From positions 1 through 64,000 of IMG/VR virus record IMGVR_UViG_3300033816_000195: a stretch of DNA of 64,000 nt, one strand, 5' to 3'. A model generated the notes under the pieces. That model was given only the letters and a program-made list of their open reading frames with translations. It ran no database searches and was not told the DNA's origin. Source of the stretch: a virus. Below are positions 3,664 to 41,517 of the stretch, piece by piece. The position numbers were made by a program, and so were the translations under genes. Position 1 is the first letter of the stretch; each line of letters opens with the position of its first letter.

Positions 3664-3802
3664 AGCATACTTAGCAGGTGCTAATAGTATGTATTGTGGT
3701 TGTTATGAAAAACAATCTAAAGCAGATGCTGCAGATTGGTTCTATAATCAGTATGGAGAACAAGAGTCAGAGAAATGTGACTGTTGTGAAGAAGATGAAT
3801 AA
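3629..3802 (+). CDS. Small Cys-rich acidic-tailed protein, unknown function
   Basis: A 57-aa product starting MHPVAFKK. I chose the ATG at 3629 over an upstream in-frame TTG at 3620. The gene overlaps the last 35 bases of the MazG-like gene. It has an N-terminal amphipathic helix-like stretch (FKKAMIEAYLAGANS), a CGC pair, and ends CDCCEEDE, so it could bind a metal. A terminator follows within a few bases, which supports it being a real final gene of the transcript. The first half looks like small phage proteins that share an AYxAG motif, but I cannot name a family. Confidence 0.6.
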   Translation: MHPVAFKKAMIEAYLAGANSMYCGCYEKQSKADAADWFYNQYGEQESEKCDCCEEDE

Positions 3803-6900: not shown

Positions 6901-7436
6901 TCTGCTTTACTTATTTCATCTAGTATAGAATACCCATTAATAAAATCATTTATAGCAGATAATTTTCCTATTACTTCTTTAGGGTCTAGAGTTTCTTTAT
7001 TTTTTAAAAGATAAGCCATTTCTAAAGATGCCTTTCTGGATTTTTCATAAGCATCATCTACAAATAAGTAAATAGATTTAACACCTTCTGCAACCTTTAC
7101 TTCTTCAATAAGATCTCTAAGTTTTTTCTTTTTATATTCTTTATTAGTAATGACTTTATTTTGGAGAGTAGCATATTGTTTTTCAAGATATAATATCACA
7201 CTATCAACTAAGTTACCAAAATCTCTAGGGTCTGATTCTTCTTCATCAGTTTTTGCAGTTTCAGCTTCTTCAGCAAAGTCTTCTGTTTCATCTGAAAATG
7301 TAAGTGTATCTGGAGTACCATCATCTAGAAGATCTTGTTCTAACAACCAAGCTTCAAATGCAGCTGATTCATTACCATTAGCTTCTGCTAAAAGTCTTTT
7401 CCAATCTTCACTATCTTTATTAGGGCAGGCTAACAT
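3984..7436 (-). CDS. Giant virion cargo-type protein (1150 aa) with C-terminal membrane segment
   Basis: The last of three consecutive giant genes. Its start overlaps the stop of the RNA polymerase gene by 7 bases, so the two are probably co-translated. The N-terminus (KDSEDWKRLLAEANGNESAAFEAWLLE) is followed by acidic and lysine-rich helical stretches with coiled-coil character (residues about 90-310). One strongly hydrophobic segment lies near the C-terminus, ATIILTTVALIMLI (about residues 1004-1020), followed by a DDDDK cluster. In crAss-like phages the genes beside the RNA polymerase encode proteins carried in the virion and ejected with it; that role is inferred from position and size. 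The hydrophobic segment could insert into the host inner membrane. No enzymatic motif is seen. Confidence 0.7.
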   Translation of the reverse strand: MLACPNKDSEDWKRLLAEANGNESAAFEAWLLEQDLLDDGTPDTLTFSDETEDFAEEAETAKTDEEESDPRDFGNLVDSVILYLEKQYATLQNKVITNKEYKKKKLRDLIEEVKVAEGVKSIYLFVDDAYEKSRKASLEMAYLLKNKETLDPKEVIGKLSAINDFINGYSILDEISKADIDNYFTADSITNRVPGQPLTPQQKIIEIKGIHETIKQKVLTEGIPLIADFLLEYKGPDITNRLESDITVLDQRISDIENSNLSDEKKAKRIAELEERKEKFKSFNLDREGLIKMLKVANKDEDVFDFLVGPLISSHDASLGLFAKAIKGGLEEARLKDIVMERTVAETFEDYLRTQSNRDNPAKFNEGIYETIEIPIKNKDGETEYIKTYAFVQKYDVTKFNKARNQMLEAIGEEPVLSDKPTFEEKQALKAWRSQRAAWYKKNTQAKPISEINKIIEEKQLELSKRIITDDEYSDWLKSVKHERNGVVTYMRELSEPSNDYLNANWTALYNLDGTPKNAKGEYHKKMLDIYLEAQEKLPEVQRRGYILPSVVKTDGERLQQEGIIKTVKTKAREAVKMQAYDTEYGLAGLGITEAKFIPVYYTQIMPTEDMSLNIARSVMLFNSMANRYEALNKINSEISLFQTVIGDRQVLKTNSLGKPVLDAFAKKLGYEEYIKKNGESYSQKHVDAFIDMVVYGEMQKSEQLFGLQIDKIVNNLMGYSAITSIAADLLKGVANNMQANIQVMIEANAGEFFNKKNLMKGKAYYTKSVPGFISDFSKSAPTNLATKLFDYYDAIQGNFKDQYGRNITGSMANKLFSTNTLFFNQFFGEHEVQGSTMFALMDATKVLDNENGEIITLLQAHEKYGVELDGKIKILQVDVNQEPIKDDAGEYIAFNYDEKQRLNFQSRLHALNKRMHGVYNEFDKGTAQRGALGRLLLMYKKHLVPAYKKRWKKLGMDQELGAPTEGYYMTFYKTFVRDLRDYKFNIMKNWASYSPFEKAQIRRVIAEATIILTTVALIMLIRSMMGTGDDDDKLTESQKAARDNYLYNFVLYEAVRMRSETSSYINPIDAYRVVKSPSAMTGTLERAIKFTDQFVFTWNPEKLSYQKDTGVWNKGDNKSWAYFLKLMGFSGYNFTPGEAVKSFESTFFN

Positions 7437-10400
7437 AATTTTTTAAGTATTTCAGTTTCTATTTTTAACAAATCTTCTTGTGTTTTAGCTTTTTGTAAAT
7501 TTAATAATACATCATTAGCATCTATACCTTTTTCAGCTAAAATTTCATCTATAGGCATAGTATTACGTAAATTCACAAACTGATCTATTAAAGCTTTTCT
7601 TTTACTTTCATCTACAGGAGTAGTAGTTGATTGTTCAACTAGACCAGATTCCATATTTACATTTCTTAATAGTATAGTATTTTCATCTACAAGATCATAT
7701 AAGTTTCTAGAATTTTTAATCCAAGTTCTTGTACCAGTAGGTAAACTTACAATAAATTTATTTGGTAATACTCCATCATTATCAGTTAATGCTGCTTGGA
7801 ATACTTTCATATCTTCTTCTTGTATTGTAGGTGTTTTTGTTGGTTCTCCTGGTTTAACTTCTCCTACTGGTTCTACAGTAGGTTGAGTAGGTTTACTTCT
7901 AAGTTGTTCAACCACTTCTGCTAAAGCTGTAGGATGCATACCTTGACCTCTAGCTTCTAATTTACCAGCATATAATAATGTAGCTCCATCAAGTTTACCT
8001 TGATTAATTTGATTAAGTATCCAAGCTCTTTGGTTATCAAATTTAGCTAAGTCACTAACACTTCCTTCTAAAATTTCTGATTCAGTTACAGCATTGTTTA
8101 ATAACCAATCCTTATACATTCTAACAGCTGCACCTATACTAGCTACTTTTATAGTATTACCATAGCCTGCTTCACTAAAAGGATTACCAAAATGTTCATT
8201 AGGTTTAGCAGATTCAGTACGCATTGTATTAACTCCTTCTGCAGTATATACAAGTCTTGTTTTTAAATCTCCTGACCACTCTCTACTTAAATCTATTGTA
8301 GGTTTAACACTAGTAGATGGTTGAGTAGTAGCCTTAAATGTATTTTCATATACATCTCTAATAGCTTGTTTACCTGCTTCATTTATTTCTCTAGTTCCTA
8401 TACCTGCAAAGTTTTTAGTAAGAGTTGGAACTTCAGACTTAGACCATTCACCATTGATATTTTTATACCATTGATTTCTTACTTGGTCAAATACATATAC
8501 AGGTTTACCGGCTTGTATAGCCATTTCTACTGCGTAACCTGTTCCCCCCTGTACTGCAAATTTAAGAAGCTTTCTTGGTTCTGCAGATTTCTCATCTCCT
8601 TTCCAAATGTCACCTTCTTTACCTAATGTACCAATAGCAAACACAGTATCTGAATTAGCAACCTGAGCCCAATTTCTAATTAGTCTCTGGTCTTTCATTG
8701 TGTTGTATTTATAACCCCACATTTCTTTTGCAGCCTGAGCAACTTTACTTGCTCCTTCTACAGCTATTGGATTATTTGTAATGTCTACATTTCCTAATGG
8801 TGCATTCTTTGGTCCTTTTTCTCCGGTGAAGTAATGTTTGTTATTTACCATACCAAACTCTTTACCTATAACATCCCACTGAGTATCTGATCCAATTGCT
8901 CCACCTGAGTGATTAGTATATTCAGCTGGATTATTTGCTGTTACTGTAGATTGAGTAGAAAGTTTAGCTGGTGTTTTAGGCATTCCAGAAGTCAAATCAG
9001 CCGCTCTTCTAAATGTAAGAGTAATAGTATAATTAGTAATTACTCTACCGTCTGAAAGTTTAATAGGTGGAAAAGGATTCTTCTTTATATTTCCTAATGG
9101 TGTTGTGTGAGAGAGAGCAAATCTTCCTTTACCTTCCATACCAAATGTATATATAGTACCATCTTTAGTAGGGATTTCATTTGTAGGATTTCTACCTTGA
9201 TAGTCTTGTTTATATGCTCCTTGGAATGTTATTTTACCTTTATTATCATCCCAAATACCAAGACCTGAATCATTACCTATTGTATATACAATAACAGGAT
9301 AACCTTCAGCAGATTTAGCTTCTGTTGTATCTCTATGTGGAGCTATACTTTGATTATCTAAATATATATTTCCTAACATTGAATCATAATTAGACATATC
9401 AATACCTAAAGCATTTTGTATTTTATCAATAAGTGGTTGTAATTCTGATAAAGATGGAAGTGTATTACCATCCTGATCAAGTTCATGATAGTCATAAATA
9501 AACTTTGTTTTATCTGTATTTTTTCCTGCTTTCTTTAAAGCTTCTATTTGAGCTTTTGTTTTACTAATACCTGCAAAAGAATCTATAACTAAAGGATTTG
9601 CTTTAAGATTAACTCTTGACCACATATTTCCAAAACTAAACTGCCAGTTAGCATTACCACCTACGTTTTCTTTATAAGCTTGTTTTTCAATTTGAGGAGC
9701 AATTAAATTAATAATCTGTTGTGTATCAGATTCTGTAGGATTAGTTTCAGCTTTAACTACTCCATAATCTGGAGAGATAACTTGAACATTAGTATTTACA
9801 GGAGCTCCTGTAGGTTTAACAGAAGATTTAGGATATACCTCATCAGCTAATAACATCTTTTTACCAGTTGCTAAGTCTACATTTTGTATGTAAACTTCTT
9901 TTGTGGCATTATCTATCATATCATAATAACCATATGAGTTTAGATTCCACTGTGCACTTTCAGGCATAGTTTGTCTTTTACCCGTTACATTATTATAAAA
10001 TTCTGTAAATAAAGTTTTTGGAGTAAAGAATACTTTAGGTTTAATGTTATTACTCTTACTTAAGTATGTGTTATAAGAAGCAACGTCTTCTGCAGACATA
10101 ATAACAGGACCCTCTGATAAACCAGTTAATAAATCAAATGATTCTATAAATTCATCTTTTACTTCTTTAGCATGAGAACCTTTTAAAGGAACAGAATAGT
10201 TCTTGAACATTTCTTCACTTACAACAGTATCATATATTCTATTTAAAATTTTATTTGTATCCTCTGCAGATATAAAATAATTTTTAAAGAAATCATTTAC
10301 TGAACTACGCATTAATTCTTGATACTGTTCAGGATCTAAAGCTTTTGTAAATCCAAATTTAGTAGGCCCAACACCATGCTGATAAAACATCATTAATGAG

Positions 10401-13400
10401 AACTGATTAAATAAGTCTGATATTCTTTTATTTAATTCTGGATCATCAACTTTTTTAATAGTAACATCTCCTAAATTACGCAAGTTAGAGTAATATATTT
10501 CTGCTAACTGTCCTTTTACAAGCTTCTTATTATTTAATTGTAGAAGTTTTACATTAGCTCTTCTTGTTTCAGCAGGTGCAATCTGTGATAATATAGGGTA
10601 TTCTGATTTTACTTTATCTGATAAACCTCTTATAAGATCAAGTATAGTATCTGAATAACTATATTTAGTAGAGCCCATTATATAAGCTTTATTATAACTA
10701 CTTCTTAAAGCTCTTTCAGATAACCATGCTTCATATGCATCTTCAGGAATATTACCTAGTGTACTTAAAAACTCTTTATATGCTAAATCATTTTCTAAGG
10801 ATTCAATAGGATTTTTAACTCTTAACGCCTCTCTTTCTAAAACATATTTATAGTAACTATTTAAATTTAAGAAAGGATTTTGATTAGGTTTAAATACATC
10901 TAGACCTTGTTCTGCATAATTTCTAGCAGTAGTATTTCCTTCTAAAAATACTTTATTATTAAAGTCATCTTCAATAGCTTTTGTATTTACAATCATTACA
11001 CCATTTTCTACAATAGCATCAAAGTCTGCATTATCATCTATTAAAGTAGGAAAGCCTCCAACTTCAGGGCCTACATTAACTAATTTACCATCTTCATTTT
11101 GAAAATTAGAAATATAGTTTTGATATATAAAGTTAATTACACCATTATTATAAGCTTTAGTAAAGTTTTCTTGTCCCTTTATACCTGTTCCAAATTTTGA
11201 TTTTATAAGTCTTCTTTCCTGAACTATTTTATCTGATATAAAAGTACTGATGTCAGCATTTAATCTTAAAGGAAATAATGGTAATATTAAATCTAATATT
11301 AAATCATCTATATTAAATGAAGATACTACAGAGTCTTTAGTTAATCTTTCAAAGGTTCCATTGTCTATTTTACTAGACTGAGTAAGCATTTTATAATTAC
11401 TTTTTCTTTGTCTTACTTGTTGAGTTGTAGTTAATGTTGAAGTATCTGGAGCAAAAGACTGTTGTAAGTTATCCATTCCTTCAAATTGTTTTTCTAACTC
11501 AATAAAGTTCATGAATAAGGCAAGTGATTTTAAACTTGAACCATCATTTGTTGATATACCATCATATAAAGTTTCTAACTTAATATCACCTGCTGGTAAA
11601 TAAGTTTTTGATAAAACTTCTGTTGTAAAAGGAATTGTTGAATTATCTAATAAATCTCCTACCTCACTAGCAGATTTATATAGTATTTTATTATACTTAT
11701 CTTCTGATTGATTATAAAGAAATATCTTATCTACCTCAGTTATTTTTTTAGAGTTTAACTCATTTGCTAAATCATTTATTGATAGCAATCTTCCTTTATT
11801 TGCATTAGGGGTTATAACAAATACATTTTGATCTTCTAACTTTCTAACTGTATTAATAGCAGCTCTTAGTTTTTCACGGTTTACCTTATTTAGTAAATCA
11901 GTTTTTTGTCCATCATTTAATGTATCTAATATAGGTATTGCAATATCATATAGGGCTGTACTCTTAACCTTAGAAGCTTTTTGACCATTTATAATAGTAT
12001 AGTATGCACTATTCATTAATCTTTGGTCTTCCATGTATTTTTTAATCAAAGGTTGATTAACAAACATGAATACTTCTTCTTCATTTACTCCTGCTTGTAT
12101 TAAGTAACTAATTACATTAATACCTTCTGGAGTCATCTGTAGATCAAAAGGAAAAGGATTTTTTGCTCTATCTAATATACCATTAAGATTATGTGAGTTT
12201 AAGTCAGTAATTCTACTACCTTTTTGTGTTTTTTCTCCGGATAATGAAATTACTAATTCACCCTTTTCATTTTTAACTACATTATGTAAAAATCTCATTA
12301 CTAAAGGTAGCTCCAATGGTTTTATAATTAACTCACCTGTATCTAAATTAAAGAACTCATCTTTATATGTATTAGGCATTTTAGCTCCAATAGTTTTAAA
12401 TATAGTATGGTTCTTTGTTATTTTAGCTTGTATACCTAATGAAGGCTCTAAAGATAAATTAGCAGCATGTTTATACAAGTTATAGGTTGCCTCTAATAAT
12501 CTTGTAGGACTTATAACTGTTTTTCTTTTTCCATCTTTATCAGGAGCTGATTTATTAGGCTCAATATTTCCTGGGTTTTTATATCTATCATAACCACTTC
12601 TTGTTTTCTCTAAATACGGTATATATTTATCTACCAAGTGAGTCAAGTTTGGTGTAACTAGATATGCATAGTTTTCAGGAAGAGCTAACAAAGATGTATG
12701 AGTTTCAATATATTTATTTTGTAAATATCTTTTCTGTTGCTCTATTAATTGTTCAGAACTTATTTCAGGAAGTTTTTCAAAATCTTCTTTAGTTAATCTT
12801 TTATTAGAAGCTTTCTTTTCCTCAAACTGTTTCTCAAGTTCTTGAGCTTTCTTTAATTTATTTTCAAAATCAGGAATTCCTTTACTAATGTAATTACCAT
12901 CTTTATCAATGTTAGCCATTGCAAAGAAAAGTTTATCACCATCAAAGTCAGAACCAGCTTTAGCAACTATTTCTGTAGGAACAATAACAGTATTACCAAA
13001 TGCAGGATCTACAAAATGCCATACTTCAGCACCTTCTATAGTATTTGTAGCATCATTTGGAATTCTTGGTCCACCTATAGTAATTGCTTTTCTATTATTA
13101 CCTGTATTCAACCATTCCTCATCTTTGATAAGCTCATTAAGTCTTTCAATGGTACCTATTTTTTGACCTTTATATACTTGGTTTAAAAGATTATTATAAG
13201 AACCTTGTAAACTAATTGCTACTTTCATCATTTTTGTAGCTGCTCTTTCACCAGTTTCTTTATTTATAATCTCTCCTCTTAAATAAAAAGGTAGAGTGTT
13301 AGATCCTAATAATTTTTTTCTTTCTTCTGGATCGGTTACATTACTAAATTGTGTGTCCCACCAACCATTTGTAAATGATGTAGGTGCTTGTACCAGTGGT

Positions 13401-16400
13401 TCACCATTAGTGGTTTGTTTAATTAGTCTTTTTTGGATTACACTCATTAACAACTGCTCAATATCCTGAGACTCAGGATGAATAGAAAGGTCCATTGTTA
13501 ACTGACCGTCATCAGTTGTATTTACTAACTTAACTAAGTGATTAGGTACATCTTTTGCTGATAATTCTTCTCTTATGAATTCAACAAAGTTTTTAAGATT
13601 ACCTTCATATCTTTTAGTTTTTTCATTATACACATAACCTATTTCATTTAATAGATCTGATTGTAATAACTTTGTGTAATCTTTAATGGTATTTAAATAA
13701 CTATCTATTATTTGTTGATTATTTTTATTTTTTATCTCACCATTTTCAAACAAGTTATCTAAAATAATAGCTCTTGTTTGTGTAGCTATTGGAAGCTTGC
13801 CTTTAAATTCATCATTAATTACAGTAACTTCTTTTAAATTAGCTAAGTAAATTGGATTTAATGTAAATTCTACATCATCAGAGATAGCTTTTTGTTGATC
13901 TGAAGCAAATATATTATCTAGTTTACCTGTAGAAGTTAAGTTAGCAGCTTTAGATCCAGAACCAAATGTAACATATTGTACATTTTCTCTAAGCATTTTT
14001 TTATGAAGTTTATCTAATTGAGAACCTTCTTTAGCATTAACACCTGGAATTAAAGGCATAACAGAAAACTTATGCATTGCTGTAGTAGCAATTAAGTCAT
14101 TCTTTAGTGCACCAAAATAATGTAATTTATAAATAGGAAAGTACTGAGCAGCCTCAGCTTGAGTAACTTTTTCACCATTTATAATCTTTTGATATAAGTT
14201 CTCTTGAGCTATAGACCATCCTCTACCTGTTTTATGTAAAGCTCTATATGCATCTATTGTCATATAAGCCATACCATCACCTTCAGTCATTTTCTCAAAT
14301 GCTTCAGCATTTAGTTTTGTAAAATACTCTGCAGTTTCATTATCATATGTTTTAGAAAACTCTTCTTTCCAGGCAGCTTTCATATCATCTAGATATATAC
14401 TTTTTCTTTCTATATCTTGAATAACAGCAGTATTTAATATGTCTGAAAAAACATAATTGTCATAGTTTATTTCACCATTAGTTTTTGCAGTCTCTATTGC
14501 AGCATAGGTTCTTAGCTTTTTTACATTTTGACCTGACTCATTTTCAGTTTCATAAGGTGCATTAAATGTATTATTAATAAAATCTTGAGTGCCTTGATCA
14601 TATAAGAAACCTGTACCATCTGATGTAGCTCCTGGAATCCTTTTAGACCAATCTTCTTTTGCATGATCCCATTGAGCAAAATCACCAAACATTATTATAG
14701 ATGTTTCAAACTTATGTATCCAATCATTATAAGCATATGCTTTAATAATATTATCTGTTATAGTCTTATTATTTCTTATTGCTTTAAGTTCTTCTGATGT
14801 AGGTGACTCAGAAAGTTTAACACCAGCTTTTCTTAAAAGAGACTCAGATAAATAAGGAACATCTTGATAGTAAGTTTTAGAATAATTAGAAACTAATTCA
14901 TTAAAATAATTTTTAAAATCATTAGATACTAGACGTGCTAACTCTCTATCAGTTTTTAATGAAGTTCTTAAATTAACATTTATATTTTCTTCAATAAGAT
15001 TATATAATTTTGTTTTAGTCTCCCGGCTCAGTACAGTATCAAATGCACTGAATACTTCTCCGGCATAAATCTTTTTACCATTAACTTCATCTACTACTCT
15101 ATTATAACCTGTAATTTTTAAAAGCTCATTTCTTTGTGATCCTTTAAACTTTTTTATTCTATCAAACTCTCCTTCTAAGTAACCAGAAAGATATTCAACT
15201 ATAGCATAATTTTCTCCCTTGTTACCCTCAAAGAACATATTGATATCTACATACAAGTTTTTATCAGCACCCTTCTCAAGAACTAATCCATTTTCTATTC
15301 CACCTATAACTCTAAAACCTTGTGAAAACTTTTTCTCAGAAATACGCGGTAGTTCTGCCCAGCCTGCAAGAAGCATACTATGAATCTCTTGTAGAAACTT
15401 GGATTTATCATCTAGTTCAGTAGTAGTATTACCTAGATCATCATTTATATTAGTACCATCTACAGCAATAGCTTCAATATATCTACCTTTTTTTCTATCA
15501 CCATTTTCTTGATATCTATCAAATATACTATTCAGTATTTTTAAATGTCTAGTATAAGTATTTATAGTAGGGTCAAGATAACTCATATAAGAATACTGTT
15601 TATCTTGCCATAGATCTGTTATTTTTTCTACATTGTTAAGAGCATCTAATCTAGCAGAATAGGTACTATAGTTTATGTCTTCATATCCTGTATTACCATT
15701 AGATCTAATTACACCAGCTGTAGCTGAATCATATCCATATTTACCTTGTAATTCAGCAAGTCTTCTTAACTGAGTATTCTCATTAAAGTCCTCTTTTATT
15801 ATTCCTGTAAATACATCTTTTGGTACAGTTGTTTTTAAAGTCTCAAGTGGGTTTAATCTAAATTTATCTAAATATTCTTTTTGAAGTGGAGTTAATGTTT
15901 CACCTGCTTGTTCAAGTAACTGTAGTTCATTAAACTCTATTACAGCATCAAATATATAAGGTAAACCATAGTAATCAGAGTTTTTATCAAGTTCAGAAAT
16001 TATATTTTTGTTTGTATCTAAACCAATACCTATAGCTTGAGCAAACTCTAAAGATTTAGATTTTTTTAAGTTCCCGCTTTTTTCTTTAAACTCAGATACA
16101 ATTGCATTTAAATTTAAAGAAGAAACATTATTTGCACTCTTATTTATATATGGAGTTTTAGGAGAACTCTTAAATTCAGAAATCCATCTACCCTGTATAG
16201 AACTAATAGATAAAGAAGCTTGTACAGATTGTAAATCAAACTCACCATTATCATTTAGTGTAGCAAACAATTGCATGTATTTAACTTTAGCTTTACCAAA
16301 GTCTTGTAAGAATTGTCTACTTATATCAAATTCATAAGTGTTTCTTGTATTTGGTTCAGGATATTTACTTTCAATTAATTGTTTAATTTCCGGAAACTTT

Positions 16401-19400
16401 TCTGCTTCTCTAACAAGAGCATCATAAGCTTTTTGTCTATCTCTTATACCACCAATAGTTTTTGCTACAATATTAAATATCTTAGAAAAATCAGCTCTTT
16501 GTTTAAATCCAAATCTATCTACAGGAGTTTTTCCTTGAGAATCTACTTTAAACAAACTCTTTAATATATAAGCTGTTTCTTTACTCATTAATTGTTGTAG
16601 AGAAACCTTACCCTTTAACTCATCATTATTTATTTCTTCTTGTCTTGTAACACCTTTACCAACTTTTGTTGAGTCAATTGCATTATCCTCACCATCTAGT
16701 ATTTCTGTATAATCTGTTTCATACTTTTTCTTTGCTACTTCATAGTCTGTATTTTCTAAATAGTATTTAATAACACCAGTTTTATTATCTCCCCAGTTAC
16801 TAAGAGCTAATTGTAGTATTCTAATATTATCTAGTATCAGAGCTTGATCATCAGATAAATTTAAATTAGGCTGTAAAGCTTTTTGATTAAGTTCAAATCC
16901 TGTATAAGCTTTTGCCTTACCTTCTACATAGTTATTATATTGTACTTCAGCATCCTCTAAATTAGATACTACAATTATATCTACAGGTTTACCATTCTCA
17001 TTTTTAATTTCTTTATGCTTATAAAAATCAGAAACAATTTTTATAGTACCTGCATATGATTCACCTTTTACTCTTTCACCTTTCTTTAAAGAAGGATCAA
17101 GTTTAGAAAAATCTAAAATTTGAGAAGCTAAGAATACATATTTATGATCACCTTTTTTATTAGTTAATTTGGCAGATGCATAATCTTTTATATTCTGTAA
17201 AGTAGATAACCCATTAAAATCAAAATCTGGTTTTAATTTATTTAGTTTATCTTTTTCTGTTTTAAGTTTATTTTCTAAAACTTCTCTAACATTATTTAAA
17301 AGAATTTCTCTTCTTTGAGTTTCAACAAGAGTAGCGATAGTGATAGCTTTAGCTCCAGGAACATTTTTATATTTCTGATATCTCTCATCTATAATTTCTG
17401 CAATTATAGAATCTATTGTAGACACTAACTGTGTACTATCTTGTTTACTAAGTATATCTTCTCTAGGATTTTCTACATTCCTTACACCTCTGTCTAAAGA
17501 GAATAGTTGAGCATTGGATATAAGTGGCGTATAACTATTTAAATTACCAACTCTCAAATTGTTAAACAATTCTTTTGCCATTGGTGAATTTAATGCATCT
17601 ATAGTAACATCTTTTTTGTTAAACTTCTTAAGAATTTTACCTAATAAAGCTTTTAAAAAATTTAATATTTGTCTAAATAAAGTATTTTTAACCGGAGTTT
17701 TAGTTTCAGGTTTTTCAGTCTTCATGTAGTTTCTGAAATCTTCTGCTAACTTTTCTTCTAATTGTCTTATCTTTGCTGTAGAGTAGCTATAGGTTTCTCC
17801 ATTTTCTAAAGTGAAGGTTCCCTTTAAAGATCTCATCTCATTATATAGATCAGTCTTTTGTTGAGGAGTTAAGAATAATTGTGAGAAAGCATGCCATGCC
17901 TCATGATATATTGTTAGATTTTGGAATATACTACCTTTCTGAACATTATAATTTATCTTACCAAGTCTATCTGGATTTGCTAAAGTTCCCGCACTTACAA
18001 TAAAAGTAGCATATACATCTGAATTTACTATATTCATTATAGGATTCAAGTCTATTGCATCTCTCATGGCTTTCATTCCAGGACTATTCCACCAATCAAT
18101 AGACTGTTTTATTTTCTTTGCACTTATTTTTTCATCTAAGTTTTTTCCTTTTCTAAATAATCCATCTATTAAATCATCAGGTTTATTAGAGTTAGTTGGA
18201 TTATTATGAGGCTGAGGAGCTTCTGGCTGAACAATATTTTGTATTATATCAGTACCATTTTTAATTTCAGCACCATCAACTTTATTATCTATAATGCTAT
18301 TTATATAATTAATTTGTTTTTGTGAAAAGTAATTTATTAAACTGTCAAGTACTTCTCTAGCAAATTCTTTAGTGTACTCGGGATTATTTTTTATTTCATT
18401 TACTAATAGTTTAGTTAAATGAAATGGTTCATTTCCCAAAATACCTTGACGAGCCATCTGATCAGTATATTCTGGTGAAGTTATTATATTATATAATCTT
18501 GTTGCTTCTATATCAGCTGCAGTAGTAGTATTTACAGGTATGAATTCATCATCAACAGGTTCTTGTGTTTGTTCATCTGTAACTATATTAGAAATTGCAG
18601 GACCTGTAGGAGCATTAAACTGTAATGAATAGTTAAAGAATCCTGGGTTATTTTCTATGAGTGAAATATTAGGATTTTGAGCAAGTATTAAATCATAATA
18701 ACTTTTTCTTTCAAATGTTTTACCACCTTTATAAACTCTATATGAGTTATTTCTTAGTGCATCATTATCATAACTTATAAAAGTATGATACCCTTTATAA
18801 CCTTTAGTTAAAGCATTAAATAAATCTTCAGAAGCTTTTGCTGTATTTTCATTATTTAGATTAGTATTAGATAGATTATATTTAGCTATTTGGTTTATTA
18901 GGTTAGGTTTCTCATATATATTTAAGAACAATGAGTTTTTTTCAAAATTATATGTTATGTCAAAATTTCTAACACTTTTTGTCATTCCTATAGGAATGAA
19001 CTGTTTAATAAAATCATATTTTTCTTGAACGGTTAATTCTGAATTTATAATGATTTCTGAAATTTGTTTTGCTATATCATTATTTATTCTCATCCTATCA
19101 ATAGGAAACTGTTCACCATTTATTCTTATGGTTCCTCCACCTTGCTTTACAATACCATTTTCTTTTGATTCAGTTTCAATTGTTTCTATAATTTTTTTAG
19201 ACTGATTAGGAAATGTTATTAAGTTTTCTAGAGATATAGTTGTAGCAGAATCTAGAGTAGTTACACCATTAGTCATTCCTGTAATAGGTAATAAGTAGGC
19301 AGCATCTGAAGGCTTTCTTCTTAAAGCAGCATCTTGTATTTTTTTAAGAGTTGCTAAGTCTTCCTCTTGTTCTTTTATTATTGAATCTAAGTAAACTTGT

Positions 19401-37497: not shown

Positions 37498-37583
37498 TTA
37501 CAATTCTTCTATAATGTAACCTTGATCAACATATCTTTTTAGGTCTTCTTTATTTTTAATATCCATTTCAATAGCCCCACCAT
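37498..37583 (-). repeat. C-terminal copy of the GG / YVDxGYxxEEL module
   Basis: Encodes NGGAIEMDIKNKEDLKRYVD followed by QGYIIEEL at the very end of the 1339-aa protein. A second copy at 40524-40602 encodes GGITLNVSDNEIQKYVDGGY followed by VVEEL. DNA similarity is also visible around the shared ATCAACATAT stretch. A more diverged version closes the 1602-aa protein near 32640-32720. Confidence 0.8.
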
Positions 37584-40500
37584 TTTTCTTGTTCCACCAA
37601 CCAGTTTTAAGCCAATCAAAAAAACCTTCATCTGAACCTTTAGAGAAATCAGTAGTATTTATTACATTTTGAGTCCATTTATTTCTTTCTGATAATCCTC
37701 TTCTTTCATATTGCTGGAGCATTTTATTTTTATCTCCTTTTACAACTCCTTCTACAAAACTTGGGAACGGATTTAAGCTACCTAAATTATATGCATAATC
37801 AGTAAGCATCATTTGACTATTCTGAGGTAACTTGTCATAAGTTCCTGTACCATATTTTTTATCTACATATTCTTCTGCTTTAGCCTGATGAACTAATACA
37901 TCTTTTTTCTGTAAGTCTCTAGCTTGTTGTTCAGTCAAACCTGAAGCAAATGATTCACCAGGTTTTAATTTATGTCCATAAGCTATAGTATTAGCACCAC
38001 CCTCAATACTAGAATGTGGATACCATTTATTATTTTTGTAACCTTTTTTAATAGAGTTTTCTAAATCTCTTAAATCTGATAAGTATTTTTCTAGAGTAGC
38101 TGGGTCTAAATCTTTAGGAGATAGTTCTCCTCCCGGAGCATAGTTATTAATGTTACCACCTTTTTTATTTTGTGGTTCAGTATTATTTTCAGATGTACCA
38201 TAAGCAGCTGCACCGGTTCCTAAACCTGTCGGAATAATATATGGTAATAAAGCTTTAAATTTATTAGGATTAGTTAAATCAAATTCTCCACTATTACCCC
38301 ACCTAGATTTAAGTTGTTGTGCCTTATTTAAATTATGCACTTCAACGTCAATAGGGTTTAGAGTACCGTCCATTATCTTTTGAAACTCTACTCTGGATAT
38401 ATCTTTACCTGCGGGTGAATTTAAAAAATCTGCAAAATGATCTGTCATTACCCAGTCATTTAAAATTCTAGGTTCTCCTGACCAACCTCTTTCTGTCATT
38501 GTAGGATGTTTCTCTAACATCCAATTTTTAAAAGCTTCTAAATTTTGAGCTTCTAATTCATTAGCAGGTACCTGATCAATTGCATTTAACCTAGCATAAT
38601 TAGTTCTATATGCCGGATCTATAACCTCTTTACCCTTATCGTCAATATAAGGTAAACCATACTTTCTATTCTTATGTCCTATAGGATATATATTTCCATC
38701 TATAACTATTTTATTAGTTGTTTGTGGCATATATAATTGACTTATCCCTTCTGGTGGAGCTTCTGTTAAAGATATAGCCGGCTCATCTAATGTTCTATTA
38801 TAAGCTCTTGCACCATATTCATCTTTTGTTGTAAATACAACCTTAGATTTGTCACTCCAATCACTTTTTAATGCATCACTTTTATCACCCCCTCTATATG
38901 TTATTTCAGTTCCTTCAGGATAAGCTTGTTTAAACTTAGTACTTTGTTGTTGAATAAATTGTTCTGGTGTTCCTTGGAAAGGAGTTCCATCTGCATTTGT
39001 CATCCAAGTACCATTAGCTTTTGTTTGTTGTTCAATAATATTATACTCTTCAGAATTTTTAATTACATTTTGAATATCTTCAGCATCATAATTTTTATTA
39101 TGTTTTTTTACCCAATTAACCCAATCTATTTCTGATTCAAAGTTAGGAATTGTTTTAGGAGTTTTTGTTCTACTTCCTAAACCAAGCATAAGTGGTCCAG
39201 GAGGTCTATTAAAAAACTCTTTTAATTTAGCTGATTTAATAATAGGTTTTGCAACTTTACTTGCTGTATTTGATGCATTTGCTCCTTTAGAATAATTTTT
39301 ATATCTTGTATGTGGTTGAAGTGGATTAGGATTATATAAAGGTAGTTCTTTACCAGTTGCTCCTGTTATTTGATCTTCTAGATACTGATAACCTTTATTT
39401 GAAAATACAGGATCATCCGGTGAAAAAGGAGAATAATTAAAATCAAACTCACTTATATCAATATCTTCTCCTCTAAAATTCTTAGCATAAACAGGTTGTT
39501 TAAAAACTTCCTCTGGTGCTGCTTTTATTACTGTTGATTTTCTTGGATAAAAAATATTTTTTCTAGGGATAATGTATTCATTAGCATTTATTTCTGATTG
39601 AAACATAGTTCTAGGTTGCCCTGGTAATACAGAACCTTGTGCTGTTTTTAAGTTTACCACATCTGAATCACTTAAAATATTTTTTTTCCAAAAAGGTATT
39701 TTTACTTCTTCTATCACCATATCATCTCCCATAAAAACACCTCTCCTGCCTTCATTTCCTTTTAAATATTGTGACATTTCTTCCAAGTCTGTTGTAAAAA
39801 AATCTCCTTTTTTATTTACTTTAGTTATAAGTTCTTTTTGTTTTGCTGCATTTATAGGATCATCTCCTAAACCATAATTTAAATTTTCTAAATTTTTATC
39901 AAATGTACTAGCTCTATATCCTCTTGTAGGATATATTACATTATCTGCGTATTTTAATCCACTTTTTAAAACAGGTTTTGCAACTTTACCTGCTGTACCA
40001 ACAACTGGTAAAGCACCTACAACATCAAGAGCAACACCTAATGCATCTGTGTCAACATCAACATAGTCTTTATTATCTCCAAATAGTTTACTACCTAGTG
40101 TCATAGCACCTTCAACAAGAGTTTCAGGAACTTGACTTATACCTGTAGTTAAATCACCTGCAAACTTTAAAGGATCATCTATCAGTCTTTCTCCAGTTCT
40201 TATAGCAGAATTTATACCTGTAATTTCTCCAACTCCAGATAAAGCTTCTGATAAATGTTGCATATTTTGACGATCTCTATTAGCATTATATGTTGCTTCA
40301 TCTACTGATATGTTTTCAATACCTTTTAATTTATTTTCTTTATTTACTTGAGCAGCCCTATCTGCAAAACTAGATGTTGATTGTTTTTTTGCTACTGGTT
40401 TTGAAACAGCAACTGGTTTTGCTTTAGCTACTTCTTTTTTAATAGTAGCCATTTCAGACTTACTTAATGTAGGCATCTTGTAACCTGTGCCTGGTTTAAA

Positions 40501-41517
40501 TGTACCACCAGGTTGCATCTCAGGTAACTCTTCTACTACATAACCTCCATCAACATATTTTTGTATTTCATTATCAGAAACATTTAAAGTAATACCTCCA
40601 TCTTTTTCCTTAGGTACATATTTAAATCTTTGTAAATCTAGATCATATACTGGTGTACTATCATTAGCTCTAGGACTTGCATAATGACCAGCTATTTCCA
40701 TCCAGGTTGTGTCACCTTCTTTAAATCCTGGTTTACCTGATTTTAAAAATACTCCTGTATTTGGATTAACACTAAAACCATGATAATATCCATCATAAGG
40801 ATCTGGTTGCCAATCAGAATTCATTTGTAAAGCTTCTTCAAAGTTTTTAGGTTTACCTAATGCATCCCACATACCATAGTGATCATATTCATTTGGATCA
40901 CCATAAAAAGAATAAGGTCTCCTATTTTCAGGAGCTGATTCAGAATACTCTAGAAATTGGTTATAATCTTCTGGCTCATTTTCTGTTCTTATTGGCTTAA
41001 ATGGCATTGGTGTTTCCTCTGCTTCTGGATCAACAGAAGTAAATGGATTATAATTATAAGGAACACCGCCATCTTGATAATACTTAGCATTAGGATCAAA
41101 TACTTTTCTTTTTTTAGATTTTGGTTTCTTAAATAGAGGATTTTCTGTAAACAGTTTATTTGTAGCAGAAAGACTCCTTGAATATTTTTTAGAAGCTAGA
41201 CCCTTTTTAGTTGGTTTAGGCATTTGTACTAAACCTCCTTTTTTTGCCATAGGAGTTTCATCTACATAGTCTGCTCCTGGAAAATTATATTCTTGTCCAG
41301 GATACATCATTTGTGGTTTACCAATATTAGGTTGTGCAAATACAGGATAAGGTACTCCTTGCATAGTAATATCACTAGAAGGTATTCTAGTTTTTTGACC
41401 CGGGAATTTCCATTGACCTTGTTCAGTATAAATAATATCTTTTTTATACGGATTAGGTTTCTTGTATTTATCTAAATCTAATTTTGCTTTAGATAAGGCT
41501 TTTCTATTATAACTCAT
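37498..41517 (-). CDS. Tail or cargo protein with phage-lysozyme-like domain and possible ART-like segments (1339 aa)
   Basis: The C-terminal region (about residues 1137-1285) looks like a T4-type phage lysozyme/muramidase: SIEGGANTIAYGHKL (E1172, T1177, H1182), GLTEQQARDLQKKDV, then MMLTDYAYNLG. A muramidase here would open the peptidoglycan during entry. Two earlier segments resemble ADP-ribosyltransferase folds, at about 525-615 (RGYRAST ... GDFFTTDLEEMSQYL) and 870-960 (TYRGGDKSD ... VFTTKDEYGARAYNR); these are weaker calls. Lysine- and Pro-rich N-terminal linkers carry GG phrases (MAKKGGLVQMPKP, YYQDGGVPYNYNP). A 26-residue GG module occurs twice (about 305-332 and at the extreme C-terminus). 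The start shares one base with the stop of the 1831-aa gene (TAATG). The lysozyme call is fairly secure. Confidence 0.78.
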   Translation of the reverse strand: MSYNRKALSKAKLDLDKYKKPNPYKKDIIYTEQGQWKFPGQKTRIPSSDITMQGVPYPVFAQPNIGKPQMMYPGQEYNFPGADYVDETPMAKKGGLVQMPKPTKKGLASKKYSRSLSATNKLFTENPLFKKPKSKKRKVFDPNAKYYQDGGVPYNYNPFTSVDPEAEETPMPFKPIRTENEPEDYNQFLEYSESAPENRRPYSFYGDPNEYDHYGMWDALGKPKNFEEALQMNSDWQPDPYDGYYHGFSVNPNTGVFLKSGKPGFKEGDTTWMEIAGHYASPRANDSTPVYDLDLQRFKYVPKEKDGGITLNVSDNEIQKYVDGGYVVEELPEMQPGGTFKPGTGYKMPTLSKSEMATIKKEVAKAKPVAVSKPVAKKQSTSSFADRAAQVNKENKLKGIENISVDEATYNANRDRQNMQHLSEALSGVGEITGINSAIRTGERLIDDPLKFAGDLTTGISQVPETLVEGAMTLGSKLFGDNKDYVDVDTDALGVALDVVGALPVVGTAGKVAKPVLKSGLKYADNVIYPTRGYRASTFDKNLENLNYGLGDDPINAAKQKELITKVNKKGDFFTTDLEEMSQYLKGNEGRRGVFMGDDMVIEEVKIPFWKKNILSDSDVVNLKTAQGSVLPGQPRTMFQSEINANEYIIPRKNIFYPRKSTVIKAAPEEVFKQPVYAKNFRGEDIDISEFDFNYSPFSPDDPVFSNKGYQYLEDQITGATGKELPLYNPNPLQPHTRYKNYSKGANASNTASKVAKPIIKSAKLKEFFNRPPGPLMLGLGSRTKTPKTIPNFESEIDWVNWVKKHNKNYDAEDIQNVIKNSEEYNIIEQQTKANGTWMTNADGTPFQGTPEQFIQQQSTKFKQAYPEGTEITYRGGDKSDALKSDWSDKSKVVFTTKDEYGARAYNRTLDEPAISLTEAPPEGISQLYMPQTTNKIVIDGNIYPIGHKNRKYGLPYIDDKGKEVIDPAYRTNYARLNAIDQVPANELEAQNLEAFKNWMLEKHPTMTERGWSGEPRILNDWVMTDHFADFLNSPAGKDISRVEFQKIMDGTLNPIDVEVHNLNKAQQLKSRWGNSGEFDLTNPNKFKALLPYIIPTGLGTGAAAYGTSENNTEPQNKKGGNINNYAPGGELSPKDLDPATLEKYLSDLRDLENSIKKGYKNNKWYPHSSIEGGANTIAYGHKLKPGESFASGLTEQQARDLQKKDVLVHQAKAEEYVDKKYGTGTYDKLPQNSQMMLTDYAYNLGSLNPFPSFVEGVVKGDKNKMLQQYERRGLSERNKWTQNVINTTDFSKGSDEGFFDWLKTGWWNKKNGGAIEMDIKNKEDLKRYVDQGYIIEEL
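40524..40602 (-). repeat. Internal copy of the GG / YVDxGYxxEEL module
   Basis: Partner of the C-terminal copy at 37498-37583 in the same gene, at about residues 305-332. Both have GG, about ten residues, an acidic helix ending in KYVD or RYVD, then GY and VEEL or IEEL. This shows duplication of a small module within one protein. Confidence 0.8.

Follow-up and report, generated by a model that had tools for sequence, protein, structure and literature searches.

A virion-type RNA polymerase with a composite tail

The window analysed here (64,000 nucleotides; positions 1–64,000 of the 73.5-kb IMG/VR contig IMGVR_UViG_3300033816_000195) carries a 4320-amino-acid (aa) open reading frame (ORF) that is uninterrupted by a stop codon. 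Judged by its sequence, the product is a Crassvirales virion-type RNA polymerase (RNAP) polyprotein: the DxDxD catalytic motif (DFDGD, aa 2482) lies in an RNAP context, and the core aligns with those of other crAss-like polymerases (Table 1). We assign the genome to a crassvirus because the 1831-aa product of positions 41517–47012 matches the muzzle model PF25731 (E = 3e-28). An HEXXH motif at aa 830 of the polyprotein stands in a similar context at related loci (L002, L003, L008, L010 and L011; L numbers denote loci throughout). Near the C-terminus, a row of predicted enzyme or ligand-binding domains, comprising AlkB-like, SLOG-like and DUF4326-like modules, sits between two bracketing copies of a small repeat domain, LINK.

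Table 1 Features of the polymerase polyprotein, in window positions.
Feature	Position	Strand	Basis
crAss-like virion RNAP polyprotein, 4320 aa	7430..20392	-	ORF; DFDGD; homology to other crAss-like RNAP cores; muzzle in same genome
HEAWH (HEXXH), aa 830-834, putative zincin-type metallopeptidase	17891..17905	-	motif only
RNAP core segment, aa 2267-2640; catalytic DFDGD at 12935-12949	12473..13594	-	
LINK1, small repeat domain, aa 3433-3519, upstream bracket of cargo	9836..10096	-	boundary at aa 3527 common to L005, L006, L011
Exchangeable cargo zone, aa 3528-4186	7835..9811	-	replaced in close relatives
AlkB-like domain, aa 3537-3805; H3686-R-D3688, H3762, R3795; T3789 replaces first 2-oxoglutarate Arg	8978..9784	-	
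SLOG-like (DprA/cpYpsA-type) domain, aa 3820-4020; SGGAIGSD, GGTGYAVEMA, FAGIGTRE	8333..8935	-	
DUF4326-like domain, aa 4030-4167	7892..8305	-	weak sequence support; window's own module under threshold
P/T/Q-rich linker PTQPTVEPVGEVKPGEPTK, aa 4168-4186	7835..7891	-	similar DNA after SLOG in L005, L110, L120
LINK2, degenerate LINK1 copy, aa 4191-4259, downstream bracket	7616..7822	-	
C-terminal end, aa 4260-4320, conserved and outside the cargo	7433..7615	-	aa 4187-4320 nucleotide identity 97.5% (L006), 92.7% (L011)

The cargo is replaced between fixed boundaries

Comparison with close relatives revealed that aa 3528–4186 are foreign cargo at an exchange site, and that the last ~134 aa belong to a conserved frame. 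Across RNAP aa 606–3527, the window is 97.6% identical at the nucleotide level to both L005 and L006, and at the C-terminal end (aa 4187–4320) it is 97.5% identical to L006; between these boundaries, L005 and L006 carry a SLOG domain and two ART-like modules instead of AlkB–SLOG–DUF4326. L011, which is 85% identical over the RNAP and 92.7% at the end, encodes an AlkB domain from a different clade, together with a distant DUF4326 and NADAR. The same two boundaries, adjoining the two copies of LINK, were found in every close-relative comparison. A preliminary description of this DNA, made from the sequence alone, had taken the last about 680 residues of the polyprotein to be foreign to the polymerase and had placed them at 7430–9350. 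That proposal holds for aa 3528–4186 and fails for aa 4187–4320, which are retained in relatives with different cargo; moreover, its interval ends midway through the AlkB domain, and the cargo lies at 7835–9811. The exchangeable cassette, the conserved extreme C-terminus and the replaced 2-oxoglutarate-binding arginine described below all go beyond that description.

The modules are under purifying selection, because their ratios of non-synonymous to synonymous substitution (dN/dS) are 0.13–0.16 (AlkB), 0.06–0.11 (SLOG) and 0.21–0.24 (DUF4326). Linker motifs occur at 17.5 per 1000 aa in the P/T/Q-rich linkers vs 0.14 elsewhere, a ~120-fold factor that is descriptive, the motifs having been picked after the linkers were seen. 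Recombination in these shared linkers probably reshuffles the modules.

A second position of variation lies at aa 606 (about 18575), where relatives have ~120 extra residues (L006 479–841, L011 776–1138) that are absent from the window. These include RGSGLYYALDKPF, which is reminiscent of ART, and may mark a second, N-terminal exchange site.

Identities of the three cargo domains

The AlkB-like identity of aa 3537–3805 is strongly supported by profile searches and structure prediction, which were both run as checks on the preliminary description. Taken alone, the window's domain matches PF13532 just short of the gathering score (E = 6e-6), and all 17 of its first-round relatives match this family (best E = 7e-17). 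Searched against the PDB, the AlkB profile finds OsALKBH1 (1.5e-6) as well as AlkB of E. coli and ABH2. An AlphaFold model (pLDDT 76, pTM 0.79) predicts a double-stranded beta-helix of the AlkB type, its top 50 PDB matches all being AlkB-family proteins (best E = 3e-11, TM 0.79). The domain thus resembles E. coli AlkB, ALKBH1 and ALKBH2 in predicted fold (TM 0.79 to 2fdk), in its HxD...H triad and in the second arginine, but it differs from them in a threonine at the first 2-oxoglutarate arginine, in its low identity (~15%) and in its place on a virion RNAP. The multi-domain alignments A7–A10, in which fragments were misplaced, were kept out of folding, and a flagellar match from a single-sequence PDB search of the tail was dismissed as spurious.

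The iron-binding residues H3686, D3688 and H3762 had been placed exactly by the preliminary description. The HxD is kept in 29 of 29 unique AlkB modules, with the distal histidine and the second arginine in nearly all. The same description had read TITLTFRR, which starts at 3789, as part of the AlkB signature; the second arginine is indeed there, whereas the first arginine of the RxxxxxR 2-oxoglutarate motif is replaced (T3789...R3795). Most AlkB clades keep it (SYRxTITMRR and similar), and the window's clade has threonine (TNYTITLTFRR). Catalysis is therefore uncertain, and we call the domain AlkB-like rather than an AlkB demethylase. A catalytically dead module that binds modified bases or another ligand as a sponge or decoy would account for the threonine, which is found throughout the clade (YT(I/V)T(L/F)TFRR). 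We think this rather unlikely, given the retention of the other active-site residues and the dN/dS of 0.13–0.16; a basic residue elsewhere may also bind 2-oxoglutarate.

The SLOG-like identity of aa 3820–4020 is well supported by sequence profiles. PHROG 768 ('DprA-like') matches the window (E = 5e-7) and its relatives (up to 2e-45), and among 36 relatives, 11 match cpYpsA (best 0.0012) and 11 match Nuc_deoxyrib_tr (best 7e-5), with no Pfam match for the window itself. Strands and helices alternate along the domain, and the SGGA and GGT motifs are invariant or nearly so. A predicted model of the SLOG and DUF4326 segments is confident in its folded parts; Foldseek against the PDB returned nothing significant for it, and its matches were confined to viral homologues, so the claim of a Rossmann-like SLOG fold is based on sequence. 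A reading of GGTGYAVE as a LOG-type phosphoribohydrolase signature was dropped, as the glutamate is glutamine in many relatives.

For aa 4030–4167, the DUF4326-like identity is weakly supported: 14 of 36 homologous modules match PF14216 (best 4e-4), the window's own module falls below threshold, and a PF14216 search across its own genome found nothing. A Pfam MOZART1 match on the DUF4326 segment was rejected as a 17-residue chance match.

Modules move independently of the polymerase

To place this tail among other crAss-like polymerases, we used a scan based on the RNAP core only, which yielded 73 complete RNAP ORFs. At least one of six modules was present in 20 of them (AlkB in 6, DUF4326 in 7, SF1 helicase in 5, ART in 4, SLOG in 3 and NADAR in 3). 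Across all loci, these six modules form 50 domain orders in 103 deduplicated cargo-bearing ORFs, a number that is not a frequency because the ORFs were partly retrieved by module queries. ART-PolyVal (PF18760) and NADAR (PF08719) both occur in related tails. Several unrelated effector domains are thus joined in varied combinations within one giant polypeptide, as in polyvalent proteins.

Module similarity does not follow polymerase similarity (Spearman −0.20 for AlkB, 0.07 for SLOG and −0.02 for DUF4326), whereas, in the same pairs, similarity in one half of the RNAP goes with similarity in the other (0.95, 0.70 and 0.70, respectively). Near-identical modules on divergent RNAPs were found in 47 (AlkB), 26 (SLOG) and 22 (DUF4326) pairs vs 0 in the control. 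For example, L110 and L120 share a SLOG domain at 98.5% identity on RNAPs that are 39% identical, and L107 and L113 share an AlkB domain at 94% on RNAPs that are 27% identical.

In some phages, AlkB, DUF4326, ART or SLOG modules are found on the N-terminal side of the RNAP core (ORF residues 569–801 in L114, 544–688 in L047, 185–350 in L008 and 91–245 in L073; also L140 and L144). L003 has a P-loop-like segment, VIYLTPGSGKTTF, between RNAP and AlkB, a cargo type outside the six-module census, and the RNAP ORFs of L023 and L043 have very long tails, which extend 2756 and at least 3419 aa, respectively, beyond DxDxD and are candidates for new cargo modules. The RNAP ORFs of L014, L018, L019, L131–L134, L139, L140 and L147 stay open only with TAG decoded as an amino acid (glutamine was assumed); TAG reassignment has been reported in delta-group crAss-like phages (PMC7886860).

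A SLOG family shared by two unrelated types of virion polymerase

We collected 71 distinct SLOG sequences, of which 49 lie in crAss-type RNAP ORFs, 5 in N4-type RNAP ORFs, 13 in other large or cut ORFs and 4 in free-standing genes. The N4-type (Schitoviridae) carriers include Klebsiella phage Pylas and Alteromonas phage PT15-A5, whose SLOG domains are 49% and 37% identical to that of the window (alignment A6); L193 and L229, which are N4-type by profile, also bear DUF4326. Although the SLOG family is the same and is likewise part of the RNAP polypeptide, the N4-type enzyme is an unrelated single-subunit polymerase, SLOG precedes the polymerase domain in Pylas, PT15-A5 and L154, and no AlkB was found in these. 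The presence of the same domains on two unrelated virion polymerases suggests a role at the moment of entry.

Among named crAss-like phages, cr113_1, cr109_1 and cr130_1 have a C-terminal SLOG fused to the RNAP ORF, with NADAR in addition in cr130_1, but neither AlkB nor DUF4326 was detected within the stretches read (cr113_1 and cr130_1 with TAG as glutamine). In the deposited records of these three phages, the whole RNAP polyprotein is labelled 'DprA-like DNA recombination-mediator protein' on account of its SLOG tail, a misleading annotation.

AlkB-bearing loci were all on uncultured contigs, and tblastn against 50,697 deposited phage records together with a bacterial genome scan found no relatives of this AlkB type within the sensitivity of the searches. 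Both results would suit an origin of the fusions in assembly or annotation artefacts. We regard this as highly improbable, because the arrangements recur in separate contigs (L006 and L007; L127–L130), there are open frames of more than 4000 aa, and SLOG fusions are also present in the deposited Pylas, PT15-A5, cr113_1, cr109_1 and cr130_1.

Fusion is the rule for SLOG (54 of 71 distinct sequences in virion-RNAP ORFs), and it extends over both polymerase types, as would be expected if the modules acted in cis. The AlkB-like domain would then rid the template or nascent RNA of lesions or methyl marks, and SLOG and DUF4326 would respond to a nucleotide signal by adjusting early transcription, so that fusion would matter for proximity and not only for delivery. 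Modules on either side of the RNAP (L114, L047, L140 and L144), the many orders and the flexible-looking linkers speak against a fixed geometry, and ART and helicase modules are hard to see as transcription regulators. We give this explanation a minor but real chance.

A candidate anti-defence payload delivered at entry

We consider it fairly probable that the tail is a polyvalent anti-defence payload that is exchangeable and ejected and whose main themes are ADP-ribose chemistry and base repair. Crassvirus RNAP proteins are virion cargo, and gp47, gp49 and gp50 of crAss001 are found in virions (PMC10172136). By analogy with its homologues, the phage would package the giant polymerase and eject it with its DNA, so that the cargo modules would enter the cytoplasm ahead of any phage gene expression. 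There, the SLOG, DUF4326 and NADAR set would most likely bind or break alarm signals or adducts that host immunity derives from NAD or ADP-ribose, and the AlkB-like domain would most likely reverse oxidatively, or at least bind, base modifications carried by the incoming DNA or by early transcripts. The domains would be reshuffled to match changing host defences, probably through linker recombination; cargo swapping probably serves to neutralize bacterial defences during the first minutes of infection. Early protection or counter-defence had been suggested as the purpose in the preliminary description, and this suggestion, now partly supported, fits the domain repertoire, the RNAP fusion in two unrelated lineages, the purifying selection and the rapid exchange.

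Several observations weigh against this account. In the RNAP-only scan, 53 of 73 ORFs lack all six modules, so the cargo is dispensable in many lineages; SLOG also exists as a free-standing gene (4 of 71); Thr3789 occupies the place of a 2-oxoglutarate-binding arginine across the window's AlkB clade; and the SLOG/DUF4326 model has no significant PDB counterpart.

Delivery may also take another form, in which the polyprotein is cut, for instance by its own HEXXH domain, and the modules act free, in the virion or late in infection. The HEXXH lies within the same polypeptide, autoproteolytic release has been proposed for polyvalent proteins (PMC5512222), and LINK2 with the C-terminal end forms a separate ORF in L028, L107–L109 and L177. 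No cleavage site was identified, however, and the peptidase is putative, known from its motif only; if cleavage follows ejection, this explanation overlaps with the ejected payload that we favour. As a distinct alternative, it seems to us doubtful.

The ejected payload has precedents. Polyvalent proteins of phages and conjugative elements are giant multidomain proteins predicted to transfer with DNA (Iyer et al. 2017, PMC5512222), and N4-type RNAPs fused to metallopeptidase, ART, lysozyme or PBECR were described in the same study. The polyvalent, injected, multi-domain principle is thus already known, as are ART, lysozyme and PBECR on N4 RNAPs. The tail studied here shares with these proteins the giant multi-effector polypeptide and, in its relatives, ART-PolyVal, but the carrier is a crAss-type RNAP with AlkB, SLOG and DUF4326 (and NADAR in relatives), and the exchange zone is defined; the words AlkB, SLOG, DUF4326, dioxygenase and crAss do not occur in the text of PMC5512222. 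In a viral ADP-ribose-processing network, as presented in the relevant passages of PMC9503650 and PMC7824862, SLOG, NADAR, Macro and DUF4326 are predicted to act against NAD-derived immune signals. The domain partners are the same there, with DUF4326 fused to SLOG and to NADAR, but outside RNA-virus polyproteins the domains are typically standalone, and those passages describe no virion-RNAP fusion; PMC9503650 mentions neither crAss nor AlkB. For AlkB-like proteins of phages, a role in resetting methyl marks has been suggested (PMC7824862). Among open-licence papers, we found none on crAss-like phages with AlkB, DUF4326 or DprA. New here are the carrier, a crAss RNAP, the AlkB cargo and the exchange zone mapped against a control.

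Little is known about counter-defence in Crassvirales, although these phages abound in the gut and in aquatic habitats. If an injected protein has a fixed cargo site, the search can be directed there, and each module at that site is a candidate anti-defence enzyme that would act before phage gene expression. The AlkB-like type is a new enzyme lead, because it has no match in deposited phages, and, with a single SLOG family present on two unrelated types of virion polymerase, a general early-infection role can be tested directly. More speculatively, crAss-like virion RNAPs may have a site devoted to the exchange of injected counter-defence enzymes, with an AlkB-like cargo that reverses a base modification made by an undescribed host defence, or that removes the self-marks of the host and thereby exposes it to its own restriction; we rate this extended proposal as improbable.

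Neighbouring virion-block protein

At 37498–41517, the window also encodes a virion-block protein of 1339 aa whose C-terminal segment resembles phage lysozyme (E = 2.6e-4, narrowly missing the cut-off).

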